Below, in pieces: positions 212 through 7,032 of a stretch of DNA of 54,810 nt. Below the pieces are notes generated by a model. That model was not told the origin of the DNA and made no database searches. It was given only the letters and a program-made list of their open reading frames with translations. A program made the translations under genes and the position numbers. The stretch lies in assembly GCF_030531065.1 (NCBI RefSeq), contig NZ_JAUNOQ010000015.1, forward strand, positions 1-54,810. Direction: 5' to 3'. Source of the stretch: Phascolarctobacterium sp. Lineage in GTDB: Bacteria; Bacillota; Negativicutes; Acidaminococcales; Acidaminococcaceae. Each line of letters opens with the position of its first letter. Position 1 is the first letter of the stretch.

Positions 212-1012
<801 letters not shown>

Positions 1013-1054: not shown

Positions 1055-1378
1055 CTATATCTTATCATCAAGTTGCCGTTCTAGATCCATACCGCCATAA
1101 ATAACACGAATCACATTAACCGTTTCATTAGCGTCATCGATCAAATAAAATACAACATAATTATCCACTGGCATTATACGAAGTCCTCTAGTATACCAAG
1201 GCTCCTTACCATATCTTCTAAACATCGTAGGCATATAGTTAAGTCCAATTATATCTCTTTTGATACGCACTATTTGAGCTCGTGCAATTTCAGGAGCTGA
1301 CAAATTATAGGCAATATAAAAATAGATTTGCCGTAAATCCTCTTTAGCTTCATCGGTAATATTAACAAAATAACTCAT
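1055..1378 (-). CDS. RelE/ParE-family toxin
   Basis: Toxin of a type II toxin-antitoxin pair, 107 residues, the usual size for RelE/ParE proteins. The protein has the fold signature of the family: an N-terminal strand (YFVNITDEAKEDLRQIYFYI), two helices, and a C-terminal sheet with RGLRIMPVDNYVVFYLID and VNVIRVIYGGMD. Its ATG overlaps the stop codon of the upstream antitoxin by 4 nt, which indicates translational coupling and a shared mRNA. RelE-type toxins cleave mRNA in the ribosome and ParE-type toxins poison gyrase. The sequence alone does not let me decide between these. The pair sits next to an orphan recombinase and may belong to the same acquired segment. Confidence 0.85.
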   Translation of the reverse strand: MSYFVNITDEAKEDLRQIYFYIAYNLSAPEIARAQIVRIKRDIIGLNYMPTMFRRYGKEPWYTRGLRIMPVDNYVVFYLIDDANETVNVIRVIYGGMDLERQLDDKI

Positions 1379-1683
1379 ATTCCTAGTTCTTTCTCTAAAT
1401 CAGCAAATACCTTAGAAGCAGGCTGAACCCTACCAGCAAGAACATCCTGATAACCTTTTTCCAGAGATTCATTAAGTTCAGCTTCTGTCATTCTGCTCAT
1501 ATCCAACAAACGTCCAGAAGGAATTTTAACCTCGAAAGGCAATCCTCTTTGCAAAATAATCTGCTTATAAAACATATTGATAGCATTAGATACAGGTATG
1601 CCAAGAGTCGATAAAATATCTTCCGCTTGTTTTTTCACATCCGGCTCAATGCGAGCATAAAGATTAGCAGTTTTAGTTGCCAT
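1375..1683 (-). CDS. RelB/DinJ-family antitoxin
   Basis: Antitoxin partner of the downstream toxin, 102 residues. The N-terminal part (TANLYARIEPDVKKQAEDIL) is the ribbon-helix-helix DNA-binding segment of RelB/DinJ proteins. Next comes LGIPVSNAINMFYKQI, the typical second helix pair. The acidic C-terminus would wrap the toxin. I chose the ATG at 1683, which has AAGGGAG about 9 nt upstream, over an in-frame start six codons earlier. A strong promoter lies directly upstream, and the antitoxin-toxin complex would be expected to repress it. Antitoxin first with a 4-nt overlap to the toxin is the common order. Confidence 0.87.
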   Translation of the reverse strand: MATKTANLYARIEPDVKKQAEDILSTLGIPVSNAINMFYKQIILQRGLPFEVKIPSGRLLDMSRMTEAELNESLEKGYQDVLAGRVQPASKVFADLEKELGI

Positions 1684-1721
1684 AATATCAACTCCCTTCA
1701 ACTAAAAAATCTGTTTTCTAC

Positions 1722-2015: not shown

Positions 2016-2089
2016 TGGCAGGGGCACTAGGACTCGAACCCAGATCGACGGTTTTGGAGACCGTTGCTCTACCATTGAACTATACCCCT
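2016..2089 (-). tRNA. tRNA-Trp (anticodon CCA)
   Basis: Full cloverleaf on the minus strand: acceptor AGGGGTA/TGCCCCT, anticodon loop CTCCAAA with anticodon CCA, T-loop GGTTCGAGTCC. The 3' CCA is encoded. Last gene of a three-tRNA operon. Confidence 0.95.
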
Positions 2090-2090
2090 A

Positions 2091-2165
<75 letters not shown>

Positions 2166-2168
2166 AAA

Positions 2169-2245
2169 TGGCGACCCGGATGGGACTCGAACCCACGACC
2201 TCCGCCGTGACAGGGCGGCATTCTAACCAACTGAACCACCGGGCC
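2169..2245 (-). tRNA. tRNA-Asp (anticodon GTC)
   Basis: Cloverleaf on the minus strand with acceptor GGCCCGG/CCGGGTC, anticodon loop CTGTCAC (GTC) and T-loop GGTTCGAGTCC. The 3' CCA is encoded. First gene of the operon. Confidence 0.95.
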
Positions 2246-2346: not shown

Positions 2347-3567
2347 TTATTCCAGCAGTCTGCGCAACACCAACTTATCTATTTTGCCGCTTTCATTCCG
2401 CGGCAGGCGGGGCAGAAAAACAAACTGCTTGGGCAGCTCGTAATCCTCCAGCCTTTCCCGCAGCAGCTTCACCAGCTGCTGCTTGCTGTAATCCCGCGCC
2501 GCCCCTACAAAAGCCGTCAGCACATCGGCGTCATCCACATGCAGGCTCAGCACCGCCGCCTCCTCCACCTGCGCCAGCTCCGTCAGCGCCGCCGCCACCT
2601 TGGCCGCGCTCACCTTGCGTCCGTTCACGCTGCAAATATCGTCCGTGCGCCCTAAAAAATGCAGCCTGCCCTCCGCGTCCACATAGCCGCGGTCCTTTAA
2701 GGAAAACGGCAGCGCAATCCCCTCCACATGGTAAGGAGTATCGATAAAAATTTCCTCCTGCCGCACGCTGATGCGCACCCCTGCAAAGGGCCTGCCAATC
2801 ACAGTGCGGTCGTCCGTCATATCCTTATCCTTAATATATGTAATGTAATTCAGTTCGCTGGCGCCGTAATACAGCGTAATTTCCGTTTTGGGAAAGACGG
2901 CCAGCAGCCTGTCCGCCTCCTGCCGTCCCATGGACTGGGAGCCGCTGATAATGCTGCGCACCCGCGCGTTGGGCTGCGTCATAAATTTAGGCAGCAGCAA
3001 AAGCTTGGACGGTATCAGGTAAAGCGCATTCACCCGATAAGCCTCCATACACTGCAGCCAATGACGCGGGCGAAAGCGCTCCGTCGCCACCAGCGTACCG
3101 CCTGCCGCCAGCACGCCCATATAGATATTTAAATTCCCGGTAAAGGCCAGGCTGCCCTGGCAAAAGATAACTGTATCCTTATCGACGCCAAAAATTCTGT
3201 TCTGCTCCGGGAAAAAGTCGGCCCAGCTCTTATAGCTGCGCCACAGCAGCTTGCTTTTGCCTGTGCTGCCGCTGGTCATTACGCCCATGCAGGCCGCCTT
3301 AGGTATATTAGTGACATCAAACTGCTGCCTGCGGCTAGCCTGCGTAGCGATAACAGGAACCGTCGGCGTGCCGCTGTACGCTAAAAAGTAAAGCAGCTGT
3401 CTGGCAATGCTATCCTCGTGAATGAAAAATACCGGCTGGGAAAAATCCGCCGCTTCGCGCAGCCTGCGCGCTTCTTCTACCAGCTGGCCGTAAGTATATT
3501 CCCGCTCGTCGTCCGCTAGGGCCAGCTTTTCTGCCGGCTGGCCAGCCGTAAGCTCCAAATAGTCCAT
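2347..3567 (-). CDS. AMP-dependent acyl-CoA ligase (ANL superfamily, YhfT/VraA-like)
   Basis: Predicted to activate a carboxylic acid with ATP and load it on CoA. At 406 residues it is shorter than typical 500-560-residue acyl-CoA synthetases, mainly in the N-terminal part. Core ANL motifs are present in order: the phosphate loop TSGSTGKSK, YGASEL, GRTDDICSVNGRKVS, and the C-terminal lysine motif PRNESGKIDK with the catalytic lysine. It is the last gene of a four-gene operon and starts one base after the thiolase stop. The set ligase, thiolase and BioY matches, from memory, B. subtilis yhfT-yhfS-yhfU. With the hotdog protein it also resembles the staphylococcal vraABC genes. The substrate is unknown; a medium-chain acid or a biotin-related acid are both possible. 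There is no carrier-protein or condensation domain, so it is not a peptide synthetase. Confidence 0.8.
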   Translation of the reverse strand: MDYLELTAGQPAEKLALADDEREYTYGQLVEEARRLREAADFSQPVFFIHEDSIARQLLYFLAYSGTPTVPVIATQASRRQQFDVTNIPKAACMGVMTSGSTGKSKLLWRSYKSWADFFPEQNRIFGVDKDTVIFCQGSLAFTGNLNIYMGVLAAGGTLVATERFRPRHWLQCMEAYRVNALYLIPSKLLLLPKFMTQPNARVRSIISGSQSMGRQEADRLLAVFPKTEITLYYGASELNYITYIKDKDMTDDRTVIGRPFAGVRISVRQEEIFIDTPYHVEGIALPFSLKDRGYVDAEGRLHFLGRTDDICSVNGRKVSAAKVAAALTELAQVEEAAVLSLHVDDADVLTAFVGAARDYSKQQLVKLLRERLEDYELPKQFVFLPRLPRNESGKIDKLVLRRLLE

Positions 3568-3568
3568 G

Positions 3569-4705
3569 CTAGTCCACCCTTTCCAGCAACAGCGCCGTAC
3601 CTACGCCGCCTGCCGCCGCCACTCCGGCGCAGCCCAAGCGCCCGCCCCGCTGCCGCAGCGCTTCCAGAAGATGCAGCGTAATAATACCGCCGGAGGCTCC
3701 ATAAGGATGCCCATAAGCCAACGCACCGCCAAAAACATTATATTTTTCCACACTGCTGCCGAAGGCGCGGGCAAAGAGCACGTCGATAACGGCAAAGGCT
3801 TCGTTCACTTCAAAATCGTCGATATCCTGCTCGCGTAAACCATGCTTAGCCAGCAGCTTCTGCAGCGCCGCAACAGCTGTGCGCGGGCTTACCAAAGGAT
3901 CGCCGCCGCAGGCCGCGCTGCCCAAAACCCTGGCCGCAGGCCGCAGGCCATGGCTTTTGGCATAAGCTTCCGAACACAGCACAACAAAAGCCGCGCCGTC
4001 GTTAATCAGGCAGGAATTAGCCGCCGTAATAAACTGACCGCCGGGCAGCAGCTTAGGCATTCTGTCCAGCAGGCGCTGGCTCATGCGGGGACGTACGCCC
4101 TCGTCCTTAACCGCGTCAAAAACCGGCGCGATAATATTTTGCAGCAGACCCTTTGCCTGCGCGGCAGCCGCCAAACGATGGCTGCGCAGTACCCAGGCGT
4201 CCAGCTCCTCTTTAGTAACGCCCTCACGCTGGCAGGCCAGCTCCGCTCCCTCCAGCATTACCGTTTCCCGATGCACGCCGGGCATAAACTTAGCCACGCT
4301 GTACCAGCTGTCGCCTTCATAATCGGGATGATTGGGCGCATAGCCGCGCCGCGGCTGAGTAGAACTGCTTTCAAAGCCCCCAGCGATAATTAAATCGGCC
4401 TCGCCGGCGGCAATCTTGGCCGCTGCCGTCGCAATGCTTTCCAAGCCGCTGCCGCACTGCACATCAACAGTAAAAGCAGGCACAGAAATATCCACGCCCG
4501 CTTCCAGCGCCATCAGTCGCGTAATATTGCCGCCAGCGCCCACGCCGTTGCCGCCGATAATATAATCAGGCCGCAGCGCCTGATATTTATCCATTACCTG
4601 ACGCAGCACCGCCGCGCCCAGCTTTTCTGCCGGAACATGCCGGTACATACCGTTGACCACGCCCACATAGCTGCGCAGTCCGCCTAAAATATATACTTTA
4701 TCCAT
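3569..4705 (-). CDS. thiolase (acetyl-CoA C-acyltransferase family, YhfS/VraB-like)
   Basis: Thiolase-fold enzyme expected to form or cleave a beta-ketoacyl-CoA. The nucleophilic cysteine sits in VQCGSGLES (Cys84). The second catalytic set is visible as NEAFAV, GGALAYGHPYGASG (active-site His) and CAGVAAAGGVGTA (second Cys). Its 378 residues are close to the usual 390. It lies between bioY (2 nt upstream) and the acyl ligase (1 nt downstream), so the three are co-transcribed. Whether it condenses or degrades cannot be read from sequence. The partner ligase and the hotdog protein suggest it acts on an acyl chain made from an exogenous acid. Confidence 0.85.
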   Translation of the reverse strand: MDKVYILGGLRSYVGVVNGMYRHVPAEKLGAAVLRQVMDKYQALRPDYIIGGNGVGAGGNITRLMALEAGVDISVPAFTVDVQCGSGLESIATAAAKIAAGEADLIIAGGFESSSTQPRRGYAPNHPDYEGDSWYSVAKFMPGVHRETVMLEGAELACQREGVTKEELDAWVLRSHRLAAAAQAKGLLQNIIAPVFDAVKDEGVRPRMSQRLLDRMPKLLPGGQFITAANSCLINDGAAFVVLCSEAYAKSHGLRPAARVLGSAACGGDPLVSPRTAVAALQKLLAKHGLREQDIDDFEVNEAFAVIDVLFARAFGSSVEKYNVFGGALAYGHPYGASGGIITLHLLEALRQRGGRLGCAGVAAAGGVGTALLLERVD

Positions 4706-4707
4706 AA

Positions 4708-5262
4708 TTATCTGTCAAAAATGCGGTGGATAGGCCCGGCAATAAAGGCGGCAGCCACGCATTTAACGATATCCAAAGGAATAAAGGGCAGCACGCCGGT
4801 ATAAAAAGCCTTATCCCACGGCATACCCGTTACCAGCTTCAGCTGCAAAAAGCCGAATAAATAAATCAGAGGAATACCCACGATGCAGCCCAGCAGTGCA
4901 TAGCGCTTAAAGCTGTACTTCTCGCCTCTTGCCGCAGCCAAGAAAACAGCGGTGAGCAAAAAGCCAAAAATATAACCGCCCGTCGGCCCGAAGAGCTTGC
5001 CCGGCCCTGCCGTACCGCCGGTAAATACAGGCACGCCGGCCAAGCCTACCAAAAGATATACCAGCATGGTCATAAAGGCCTGCTTAACATTCAAAACATA
5101 GCCTGTCAAATTAACAATCATGGTTTGCAGCGCAATCGGCGACAGCGAAAAGGGCAGCGGGATAATAATATATGCAGAAATGCAGTTCATCGCTACCATC
5201 AGCGCCATTTTCGTCATTTCCGACGTTTTATTGATACCAGGGTTATTAGTTGTCATCTTCAC
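4708..5262 (-). CDS. bioY: BioY family biotin transporter S-component
   Basis: Membrane protein of 184 residues with six hydrophobic segments, the size and pattern of BioY substrate-binding components of ECF-type vitamin transporters. The family core is seen as LTGYVLNVKQAFMTM, GLAGVPVF and the glycine-rich GPTGGYIFGF loop. The start is probably the GTG at 5262; an ATG two codons later is possible. No EcfA or EcfT gene is nearby, so it would use a shared energising module or work alone, as described for some BioY proteins. It is the second gene of an operon that carries a BirA-like palindrome over its promoter. Confidence 0.9.
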   Translation of the reverse strand: MKMTTNNPGINKTSEMTKMALMVAMNCISAYIIIPLPFSLSPIALQTMIVNLTGYVLNVKQAFMTMLVYLLVGLAGVPVFTGGTAGPGKLFGPTGGYIFGFLLTAVFLAAARGEKYSFKRYALLGCIVGIPLIYLFGFLQLKLVTGMPWDKAFYTGVLPFIPLDIVKCVAAAFIAGPIHRIFDR

Positions 5263-5276
5263 AGCACCAGCCTTAC

Positions 5277-5813
5277 TTAAAATTTAATAACAAAGACCTT
5301 AGCAGCTCCCACATAAGCCCGCAGCTCGTTTTCAATACGGTAAACCTTGAGCGCGTCGCCTGCATACACCGGCGACAAAAAGCTGATGCGCCAGTCCAGC
5401 TCCCGCAGCTGCAACGCCCGCTGCAGCCACGCGGCCATGCACAGGCCGGGAACGACAGGGTGGTCGCCCTGATGAATAATATTTTCATCGCCTGTAAAGG
5501 CCACGTAAGCGCCTATTTCCTCCACGGTAAAGCAATGCTCCGCCGCCAGAACGCCCTGCGGCTGTTCCTGCGCAGGCGCCTTGCTGCCCAGTCCTTGCTT
5601 CGGCAGCAGCAAGAATACCCGCAGCTCCTTAACTGCGCCGCCGCTTTGCGCTTCGCCCAGCACCTGGATAATACATTTGCGCTCCTTGCGCAGCAGCTCC
5701 TTATTGGTTAATATGTCTGCATGCCCATGAATATGGGCCTCCGCTCCGGCCAGGACCCAGCCGCCAAAAAATTCAGCGTCGCTGTCCGCCAGCTTATGTG
5801 CAAGCTCTAACAT
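5277..5813 (-). CDS. MaoC-like hotdog-fold protein (VraC-like)
   Basis: First gene of the BioY operon, 178 residues. The second half contains the MaoC/hotdog signature YVAFTGDENIIHQGD followed by PVVPGLCMAAWL. This resembles the active-site Asp/His segment of R-specific enoyl-CoA hydratases and dehydratases. The first half is not recognisable. A staphylococcal protein encoded beside an acyl ligase and thiolase (VraC) has this kind of architecture as I remember it. Probable role: hydration, dehydration or thioester hydrolysis of an acyl-CoA made by the two downstream enzymes. The ribosome-binding site AAAGGATG lies 9 nt before the ATG. Specific function unproven. Confidence 0.65.
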   Translation of the reverse strand: MLELAHKLADSDAEFFGGWVLAGAEAHIHGHADILTNKELLRKERKCIIQVLGEAQSGGAVKELRVFLLLPKQGLGSKAPAQEQPQGVLAAEHCFTVEEIGAYVAFTGDENIIHQGDHPVVPGLCMAAWLQRALQLRELDWRISFLSPVYAGDALKVYRIENELRAYVGAAKVFVIKF

Positions 5814-5839
5814 CTTTATAACATCCTTTCACATAGCAT

Positions 5840-5868
5840 ATTATAAAGCAAGGCGGCAGCGCAGTCAA
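5840..5868 (-). promoter_or_regulatory. promoter of the hotdog-bioY-thiolase-ligase operon
   Basis: Minus strand TTGACT, 17-nt spacer, TATAAT: a near-consensus housekeeping promoter about 27 nt before the first start codon. The -35 box lies inside one arm of the palindrome at 5852-5904. Confidence 0.85.
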
Positions 5869-5904
5869 CTCTTTTGTAAGTTTAAGTTAACTGCGACTGC
5901 CGCC
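5852..5904. promoter_or_regulatory. large palindrome: dinB terminator and candidate BirA operator
   Basis: Arms of about 19 nt (5852-5870 and 5885-5904) flank a 14-nt loop. The core is GTCAAC, 16 nt, GTTAAC. As RNA the minus strand folds into a strong hairpin directly over the dinB stop codon, with only a weak T-rich tail. As DNA the GTTAAC-N16-GTTGAC half-sites resemble BirA boxes of Gram-positive bacteria. They overlap the -35 of the bioY operon. The BirA reading is an inference from spacing, half-site and gene content. Confidence 0.55.
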
Positions 5905-7032
5905 GCGAAAAATAATCCGCTCGCCAAAGCGCGCTTTTAATTTGTCGGTAACGTCGCTGCGCCGCTGGCGCTTAGCGTCCTCTTCAAAGCCCAGCCCCAA
6001 CGGCTGCCCGCTGCCCAGTCCCGCTACGGCAATGCCTAAAAGCCGCACGCCCTTCTGCAAAGCCACCTGCTCCAGCAGCCGCACTGCCAGGGCGTAAATA
6101 TCCTCGTCGCTGCTGATATCGCTTTCACTGGTAATACTGCGCGTAATCGTGCGGAAATCAGCATATTTAACCTTTAAGGTAAGCGTATGGCCGTAATAGC
6201 CCTTGCGCCGCAGCCGGTAGCCCACCATGCCGCTCAGCTCCAAAAGATGGCGGCGGCAGGATTCCTTATCCAATAAGTCCCGCTCAAAGGTAGTTTCCCG
6301 TCCGATGGATTTAGGCTCGCTGTCCGGCGTTACAGGCCGGTCGTCCAGGCCGTAGGCCAAAAGGCGCACCCGTTCGGAGTTCTTCCCAAAGATGCGTCGC
6401 AGCACGATTGCGTCGGCCACAGCCAGCTTGCCGATGCAGTCGACGCCAACCTGCTCCAGCTCCTTTTGCGCCGCAGCGCCAATGCCGAAAATTTTCGTCA
6501 CCGGCAAGGGCGCAATAAAAGCGCGGGCGTTTTCATGGGTAATCACGGTAAAGCCGTCCGGCTTGTGCAAATCCGAAGCCATCTTCGCCAAAAACTTGTT
6601 GGGCGCCAAGCCTACGGACGCAGTAAGGCCAACCTCCTCCTTAATGCGCCGCTTCGCCAGACGGCCCACCTGCTCCGGCCCTCCGTACAAACGCTCCATA
6701 CCCGATACGTCTAAAAATGCTTCGTCGATAGAAAGCTGCTCCACCAAAGGCGATAAATCGTGAAAGATGCTCATAATCCGCCGCGATATCTCCTTATACC
6801 GCTCCATGCGCCCTGGCAGATACACGGCCTCCGGGCACAGCTTGTGCGCCAGCGCCATGGGCATGGCCGAATGCACGCCGTAACGCCGCGCTTCGTAAGA
6901 GCAGGTTGACACCACGCCGCGCAGGGACTGCCCGCCGACGATAATCGGCAGCCCCAGCAGCGCAGGATTATCCAATACCTCTACCGCAGCAAAGAACGCA
7001 TCCATATCCACATGCATAATCCAGCGTACCAT
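5887..7032 (-). CDS. dinB: DNA polymerase IV (Y family)
   Basis: Error-prone translesion polymerase of 381 residues. The catalytic acidic residues are visible in IMHVDMDAFFAAVE at the N-terminus and in QLSIDEAFLDVSG near residue 100. The helix-hairpin-helix and little-finger regions follow (GIGAAAQKELEQVGV, SIGRETTFERDL). I chose the ATG at 7032, which has GGAGG 7 nt upstream, over an earlier in-frame start. It is the last gene of the recD2-comF-permease-dinB operon. A C-terminal beta-clamp-binding peptide is not obvious. The stop codon lies inside a large palindrome that also covers the next operon's promoter. Confidence 0.95.
   Translation of the reverse strand: MVRWIMHVDMDAFFAAVEVLDNPALLGLPIIVGGQSLRGVVSTCSYEARRYGVHSAMPMALAHKLCPEAVYLPGRMERYKEISRRIMSIFHDLSPLVEQLSIDEAFLDVSGMERLYGGPEQVGRLAKRRIKEEVGLTASVGLAPNKFLAKMASDLHKPDGFTVITHENARAFIAPLPVTKIFGIGAAAQKELEQVGVDCIGKLAVADAIVLRRIFGKNSERVRLLAYGLDDRPVTPDSEPKSIGRETTFERDLLDKESCRRHLLELSGMVGYRLRRKGYYGHTLTLKVKYADFRTITRSITSESDISSDEDIYALAVRLLEQVALQKGVRLLGIAVAGLGSGQPLGLGFEEDAKRQRRSDVTDKLKARFGERIIFRGGSRS

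Follow-up and report, generated by a model that had tools for sequence, protein, structure and literature searches.

A BioY operon of Phascolarctobacterium with a predicted BirA-type operator and enzymes that look able to add two carbons to a small acid

The stretch of DNA analyzed here, 54,810 nucleotides of Phascolarctobacterium sp. (assembly GCF_030531065.1, contig NZ_JAUNOQ010000015.1, positions 1 to 54,810) and referred to as the window, carries a four-gene operon that appears to be switched by the biotin sensor and that combines the biotin importer BioY with three enzymes: a double-hotdog protein, a thiolase-like enzyme and an adenosine monophosphate (AMP)-forming acyl ligase. Together, these enzymes look able to add two carbons to a small acid. 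Taken as a whole, the operon probably encodes enzymes that lengthen a free acid reductively by two carbons and that would be repressed by biotin and made when biotin is low, a reading that we hold with moderate confidence. The type of BirA regulon and the trio of BioY, ligase and thiolase are already known. What is new is that a dehydratase regularly makes up a fourth part, that the thiolase has lost the Cys of its CxG motif and that some loci add a reductase or thioesterase; none of this is described in the papers searched. Also new are the presence of bioB itself in some of these operons and the occurrence of the module in genomes that lack BioF or BioW and, in some cases, BioB. The four genes, in their order on the minus strand, are as follows.

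5277..5813, minus strand: MaoC/hydratase-2-type double-hotdog protein of 178 amino acids (aa), likely an (R)-3-hydroxyacyl dehydratase/hydratase, with D109, N111 and H114
4708..5262, minus strand: BioY, S component of the biotin energy-coupling factor (ECF) transporter (PF02632)
3569..4705, minus strand: thiolase-superfamily condensing enzyme of 378 aa; C84 (CxS), N301 (NEAF) and H333 (GHP) kept, Cys of CxG replaced by Ala
2347..3567, minus strand: AMP-forming acyl ligase of 406 aa (PF00501, PF13193), with an N terminus shorter than usual

The genes are separated by 14, 2, and 1 bp, respectively. BioY matches PF02632 with 136 bits (Pfam cut-off 25) and is the sole member of this family in the genome. 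The region upstream of the hotdog gene contains a promoter, a palindrome and a hairpin.

5824..5829, minus strand: ribosome-binding site AAAGGA of the hotdog gene
5840..5845, minus strand: -10 element TATAAT, 17-bp spacer, invariant in 10 homologous promoters
5863..5868, minus strand: -35 element TTGACT, with TTGAC invariant in 10 homologous promoters
5864..5891, minus strand: predicted BirA-type operator GTTAAC-N16-GTTGAC, half-sites GTTAAC (5891-5886) and GTTGAC (5869-5864)
5848..5906, minus strand: long GC-rich hairpin around the operator, probable dinB terminator, from folding energy and z

An earlier, sequence-only reading of this DNA had described four tightly packed genes behind a near-consensus promoter with a palindrome over its -35 element, and this is the arrangement that was found. 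The right half-site of the operator holds the -35 element, and the left half-site holds the stop codon of dinB. When ten close upstream regions are compared, TTGAC and TATAAT do not vary, nor does much of the right half-site, although much of the remainder does.

In the genome of 2.37 Mb, the pattern GTTRAC-N15-17-GTTRAC occurs at five places. Because about three are expected from base composition alone, the bare count is uninformative; it was dropped as evidence, and the positions of the matches were used instead. Four of the five lie directly upstream of biotin genes, namely this operon, bioB, and bioD (two sites), and the fifth, inside a large gene on C23, looks like chance. The bioB box sits just downstream of the -10 element. 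In the operon bioD-bioA-(ECF S-component-like)-bioWF, one box overlaps a -35 element TTGACT, as it does at the BioY operon, and the second covers the start region. The BirA of this genome is a protein of 335 aa with the domains HTH_11, BPL and BPL_C. The BirA-type control proposed by the sequence-only reading, with the same palindrome before other biotin genes, is borne out by the box shared with the true biotin operons of the genome and kept in many relatives. That reading had named the absence of the palindrome from such operons as a refutation, and this outcome did not occur. Two biotin-related loci of this genome deserve mention. A second biotin protein ligase without the helix-turn-helix domain is encoded at L012:1945-2688, and the genome thus has one ligase of group I and one of group II. 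At L009:1804-6668, the genes bioD and bioA are followed by one for a 157-aa membrane protein and by the bioWF fusion, behind the two boxes; the membrane protein has no Pfam match, is ECF S-component-like and may import a biotin precursor.

The box is also conserved well beyond this genome. A contig scan with the thiolase alignment as the query gave 78 named homologous loci in Phascolarctobacterium, Lachnospiraceae, Clostridioides, Propionispira, Anaerovibrio, Selenomonas and others, in agreement with the conserved module across distant Firmicutes that had been suggested from the sequence. The pattern GTYAAC-N15-17-GTTRAC is found in 48 of the 78 upstream regions of the module and in none of 344 upstream regions of other genes at the same loci. 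In Staphylococcus aureus, BirA binds the yhfS-yhfT promoter and represses it in response to biotin (PMC6391492; PMC7235819). Judging from these sequence patterns, control of the present operon by BirA is very likely, and it is not new in kind, as bioY and yhfST of Bacillus and Staphylococcus are known targets of BirA.

It could be argued that the palindrome is merely the hairpin of the dinB terminator and no operator at all. The predicted RNA fold at the dinB stop codon is very stable (-36.4 kcal/mol, z -7.2), with the box nested inside a longer inverted repeat, and in two relatives that also have dinB upstream (G057 and G058) the arms differ in sequence while paired changes keep them folded (z -5.4 and -3.3). 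However, the half-sites are kept in relatives that lack the hairpin arms and have a different or divergent upstream gene (G036, G014-G019 and Clostridia), and within the genome of the window they recur at bioB and bioD. In G036 and G014, where the long hairpin is absent, only the box itself pairs well. A terminator without an operator is very improbable in the face of this distribution, and the outer arms are probably the dinB terminator merged with the operator.

The direction of the proposed chemistry is indicated by the thiolase. This protein scores 336 bits against TIGR01930 (cut-off 240.55) and is also above the cut-offs of PF00108 and PF02803. When it is aligned to solved thiolases and to its homologues, the CxS nucleophile and the NEAF and GHP motifs are kept, while the Cys of the CxG loop, the canonical second catalytic Cys, is an Ala. 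The position holds Ala in 78 of 80 named homologues and Cys in none, and the homologues of the order that reach this position likewise have Ala. Enzymes that gain their nucleophile from a malonyl unit by decarboxylation can do without the base of the CxG motif. In thiolases, the Cys of this motif is the proton-abstracting base (PMC3406046). Since this base is lost while CxS, NEAF and GHP stay, the sequence points to a decarboxylating, synthetic condensing enzyme. No close relative of the protein was seen on any plasmid in a plasmid search.

The same evidence bears on a degradative role, in which ligase, hydratase and thiolase would shorten an imported acid by beta-oxidation. Beta-oxidation does use these three enzyme classes, and the names of the matching profiles say so. 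Nevertheless, the CxG Cys is gone in nearly all homologues, and no recurrent acyl-coenzyme A (CoA) dehydrogenase or hydroxyacyl dehydrogenase was seen beside the module in the neighborhoods of the named loci. Furthermore, the extra acyl redox enzyme, where one is present, is a trans-2-enoyl-CoA reductase, which belongs to the reductive direction. We therefore regard a degradative function as decidedly unlikely.

The 178-aa hotdog protein has no Pfam match above cut-off; its score against PF01575 is 14.7 bits (cut-off 27), and weak matches to the same family occur in 13 of its 26 homologues (E up to 0.1, best 4.4e-5). The AlphaFold model is a confident double hotdog (pLDDT 93.9). Its best VIA structural match is HtdX, with Z 16.8 over 162 residues at 15% identity, and the best Foldseek match is a hydratase 2 domain (1s9c, E 2.8e-8); itaconyl-CoA hydratase and hydratase-2 domains are also among the best structural matches. 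Residues D109, N111, H114 and G123 are invariant over the 26 homologues, down to 17% identity. The predicted fold and the D-x-N-x-x-H motif are thus common to this protein and to (R)-hydratase 2 of the MaoC/HtdX type, whereas the window protein is only 10-20% identical to these enzymes, has a short loop after the catalytic His and stays below the Pfam cut-off. The protein is likely a MaoC/hydratase-2 double hotdog acting as an (R)-3-hydroxyacyl dehydratase or hydratase. In three loci from other families of the order (L148, L150, and L140), the operon lacks the leading MaoC-type hotdog and has a small FabZ/FabA-like hotdog behind BioY-thiolase-ligase instead; two of these trailing proteins match the FabA-like family PF07977 (L140, E 1.4e-8; L150, E 4e-4). 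In these lineages, it looks like one dehydratase has been replaced by another. A further arrangement was observed in G033, where the hotdog gene stands alone, apart from BioY (L040:1277-1816), and thiolase, ligase and BioY are reordered with a box of their own (L173).

The ligase is above the cut-offs of PF00501 and PF13193 and contains the motifs A3, A5, A7 and A10 (TSGSTGKSK, YYGASE, GRTDD, and NESGK), with the core residues invariant in close relatives. Its best NCBIfam model is PRK07638, and for the thiolase PRK06690 ranks next after the broad TIGR01930. Both specific models, which presumably represent the Bacillus counterparts, are matched below their cut-offs and suggest a probable kinship with the bioY-ligase-thiolase set of Bacillus and Staphylococcus, as the sequence-only reading had proposed. 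In B. subtilis, YhfT is reported to form the acyl-AMP and to transfer the acyl group to acyl carrier protein (ACP), with no CoA thioester formed (PMC10988940). Some operons contain additional parts. In L265, L281 and L282, the gene behind the ligase codes for a trans-2-enoyl-CoA reductase, in L306 and L324 this position is taken by a 4HBT thioesterase gene, and bioB lies inside the operon in five clostridial loci (L259, L263, L264, L265, and L267), where BioY is divergent.

Put together, the parts suggest the following course of events. When biotin is plentiful, BirA carrying biotinyl-AMP would occupy GTTAAC-N16-GTTGAC and cover the -35 element; when biotin is scarce, the operon would be transcribed. 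BioY would then import biotin or a related acid, and the ligase would activate a free carboxylic acid by loading it onto ACP or CoA. Condensation of the activated acid with a malonyl unit, by decarboxylation, may be the task of the thiolase-like enzyme, after which a housekeeping ketoreductase would reduce the product and the MaoC-type hotdog would dehydrate it. Saturation would be left to an enoyl reductase, either a housekeeping one or the trans-2-enoyl-CoA reductase that some of the operons encode.

Several observations weigh against this reading. The exact box pattern is absent from 30 of the 78 named loci, many of which have a near form, and several genus g2 loci (e.g., L133 and L135) showed no strict box upstream of the module. 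No ketoreductase was seen in these operons, and reductase or thioesterase neighbors occur in a minority of loci only. The loss of the CxG Cys could instead mean an altered mechanism that is not decarboxylative.

The substrate is the least certain part of the proposal, the candidates being shortened biotin vitamers, a pimelate precursor and a fatty acid, and here the distribution of the module is instructive. Sixty-three genomes of the order were searched for the hotdog, bioB, BioY, BioW, BioC, BioF, and BioD, and about 70 neighborhoods of BioY or the module were inspected. The module is found together with BioW/BioF in genera g1, g6 and g18. In seven of the nine genomes of genus g2 (G001, G002, G004-G007, and G009), it is found without BioF and BioW, and in G045, G060, G010 and G007, bioB is the sole match among bioB, bioD and bioF. 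The genera of the order that lack bioB have BioY alone where BioY was found (g9: L145, L182-L184; g15: L146). In G027, where neither bioB nor BioW was matched, the hotdog and BioY are intact while thiolase and ligase are broken up into several reading frames (L043:4759-7109), reflecting either decay or an assembly error. Outside the order, bioB was matched in 31 of 50 named carriers; the other 19, some of them large isolate genomes, gave no match. Several simpler associations were considered and set aside. A strict link between the module and bioB seemed to hold inside the order, where the genera free of bioB have BioY alone, and bioB is part of some operons of Lachnospiraceae, but the link failed outside the order; a Fisher test of the two within the order (p 0.003) was not relied on, being a hand tally of related genomes. 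A link to BioW was dropped since many carriers lack BioW and many genomes with BioW lack the module, and BioC was dropped as an alternative source of pimelate since it matched in 1 of the 63 genomes, in another family, and in no genome of this family. The module is tied to no single step of biotin synthesis.

The first candidate to be weighed against this distribution is a pimelate precursor, in which case the module would extend a glutaryl group (C5) to pimeloyl (C7) and feed BioW/BioF, as a thiolase-fold counterpart of BioZ. The genome of the window has a BioW-BioF fusion, BioA, BioD and BioB, and no BioC was found in the genomes of this family. BioZ itself extends glutaryl-CoA with malonyl-ACP and is a Cys-His-Asn enzyme of the ketoacyl-ACP synthase III (KAS III) type (PMC7645780), and Cys, His and Asn are retained in the thiolase of the module. 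This route is nonetheless difficult to reconcile with the genus g2 genomes without BioF and BioW, with G045, G060 and G010, which have bioB and no bioF or bioD match, and with the 19 named carriers without a bioB match. Because so many carriers lack BioF, BioW and sometimes BioB, pimeloyl is disfavored as the general function, and we consider this route unlikely. Of the two roles that the sequence-only reading had offered, the making of a precursor acyl-CoA is therefore weakened as a general answer, and the processing of biotin relatives fits the distribution somewhat better.

A second candidate is a fatty acid, with exogenous or cellular fatty acids being activated and elongated when acetyl-CoA carboxylase is short of biotin. 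Independence from the biotin synthesis genes fits the distribution, the dehydratase and ligase belong to families of lipid enzymes, and in B. subtilis, YhfT helps to supply the 3-hydroxy fatty acids of surfactin (PMC10988940). On the other hand, a decarboxylating condensing enzyme needs malonyl units, which a shortage of biotin would itself limit. The need should also be greatest in the absence of bioB, yet the bioB-free genera of the order (g9 and g15) have BioY alone, and in G027, which has no bioB, the module is frameshifted. Adjustment of fatty acids is a possible function, though not one that we expect.

We favor a biotin-family acid whose side chain has been shortened over a pimelate precursor because the module persists without BioF, BioW or BioB. 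A shortened side chain of biotin or dethiobiotin would explain the presence of BioY, the BirA box, the occasional bioB and the indifference to BioF. In its most specific form, which we put forward only tentatively and as unlikely, this would be a salvage route not previously described, in which bisnorbiotin, or the corresponding dethio compound in operons that include bioB, enters through BioY and is charged onto ACP or CoA by the ligase. The thiolase-fold decarboxylating synthase, the MaoC-type dehydratase and reductases would then restore the two missing carbons to give biotin or dethiobiotin. No paper on bacterial salvage of bisnorbiotin was recognized in the open literature searched.

Known systems resemble the operon in part. 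In B. subtilis, bioY-yhfT-yhfS is under BirA (PMC11089781) and, as in the window, BioY is encoded with a ligase and a thiolase. In S. aureus, the thiolase-like and ligase genes yhfS-yhfT are repressed by BirA via a palindrome, and bioY belongs to the same regulon (PMC6391492; PMC7235819). Going by the published descriptions, the window differs from this set in having BioY and a MaoC-type dehydratase in one operon. We know of no dehydratase gene in the bioY-yhfT-yhfS set of B. subtilis. BioZ, from the alpha-proteobacterial pimeloyl-ACP route, is a biotin-linked condensing enzyme that joins a short acid to two carbons, much like the role proposed here (PMC7645780), but BioZ is FabH-like whereas the window enzyme matches thiolase profiles, and many carriers of the module have no BioF.

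Other features were noted between the operon and the left end of the window. Directly downstream of the ligase, on the same strand, is a cluster of tRNA-Trp, tRNA-Gly and tRNA-Asp genes (2016-2245, minus strand). A ParE-type toxin is encoded at 1055-1701 (minus strand), with a short upstream gene that resembles its antitoxin, and an open frame resembling a serine recombinase or resolvase lies at 212-862 (minus strand), close to the window's left end.

In the papers found, the products of BirA-controlled bioY-ligase-thiolase sets are called merely putative. The regular dehydratase, the thiolase without its ordinary base, the occasional enoyl reductase or thioesterase and the lack of any need for BioF, BioW or BioB narrow the role that such a set may have. 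Ultimately, an annotation puzzle that is common to gut Negativicutes, Lachnospiraceae and C. difficile is reduced to a few candidate substrates for tests in vitro.

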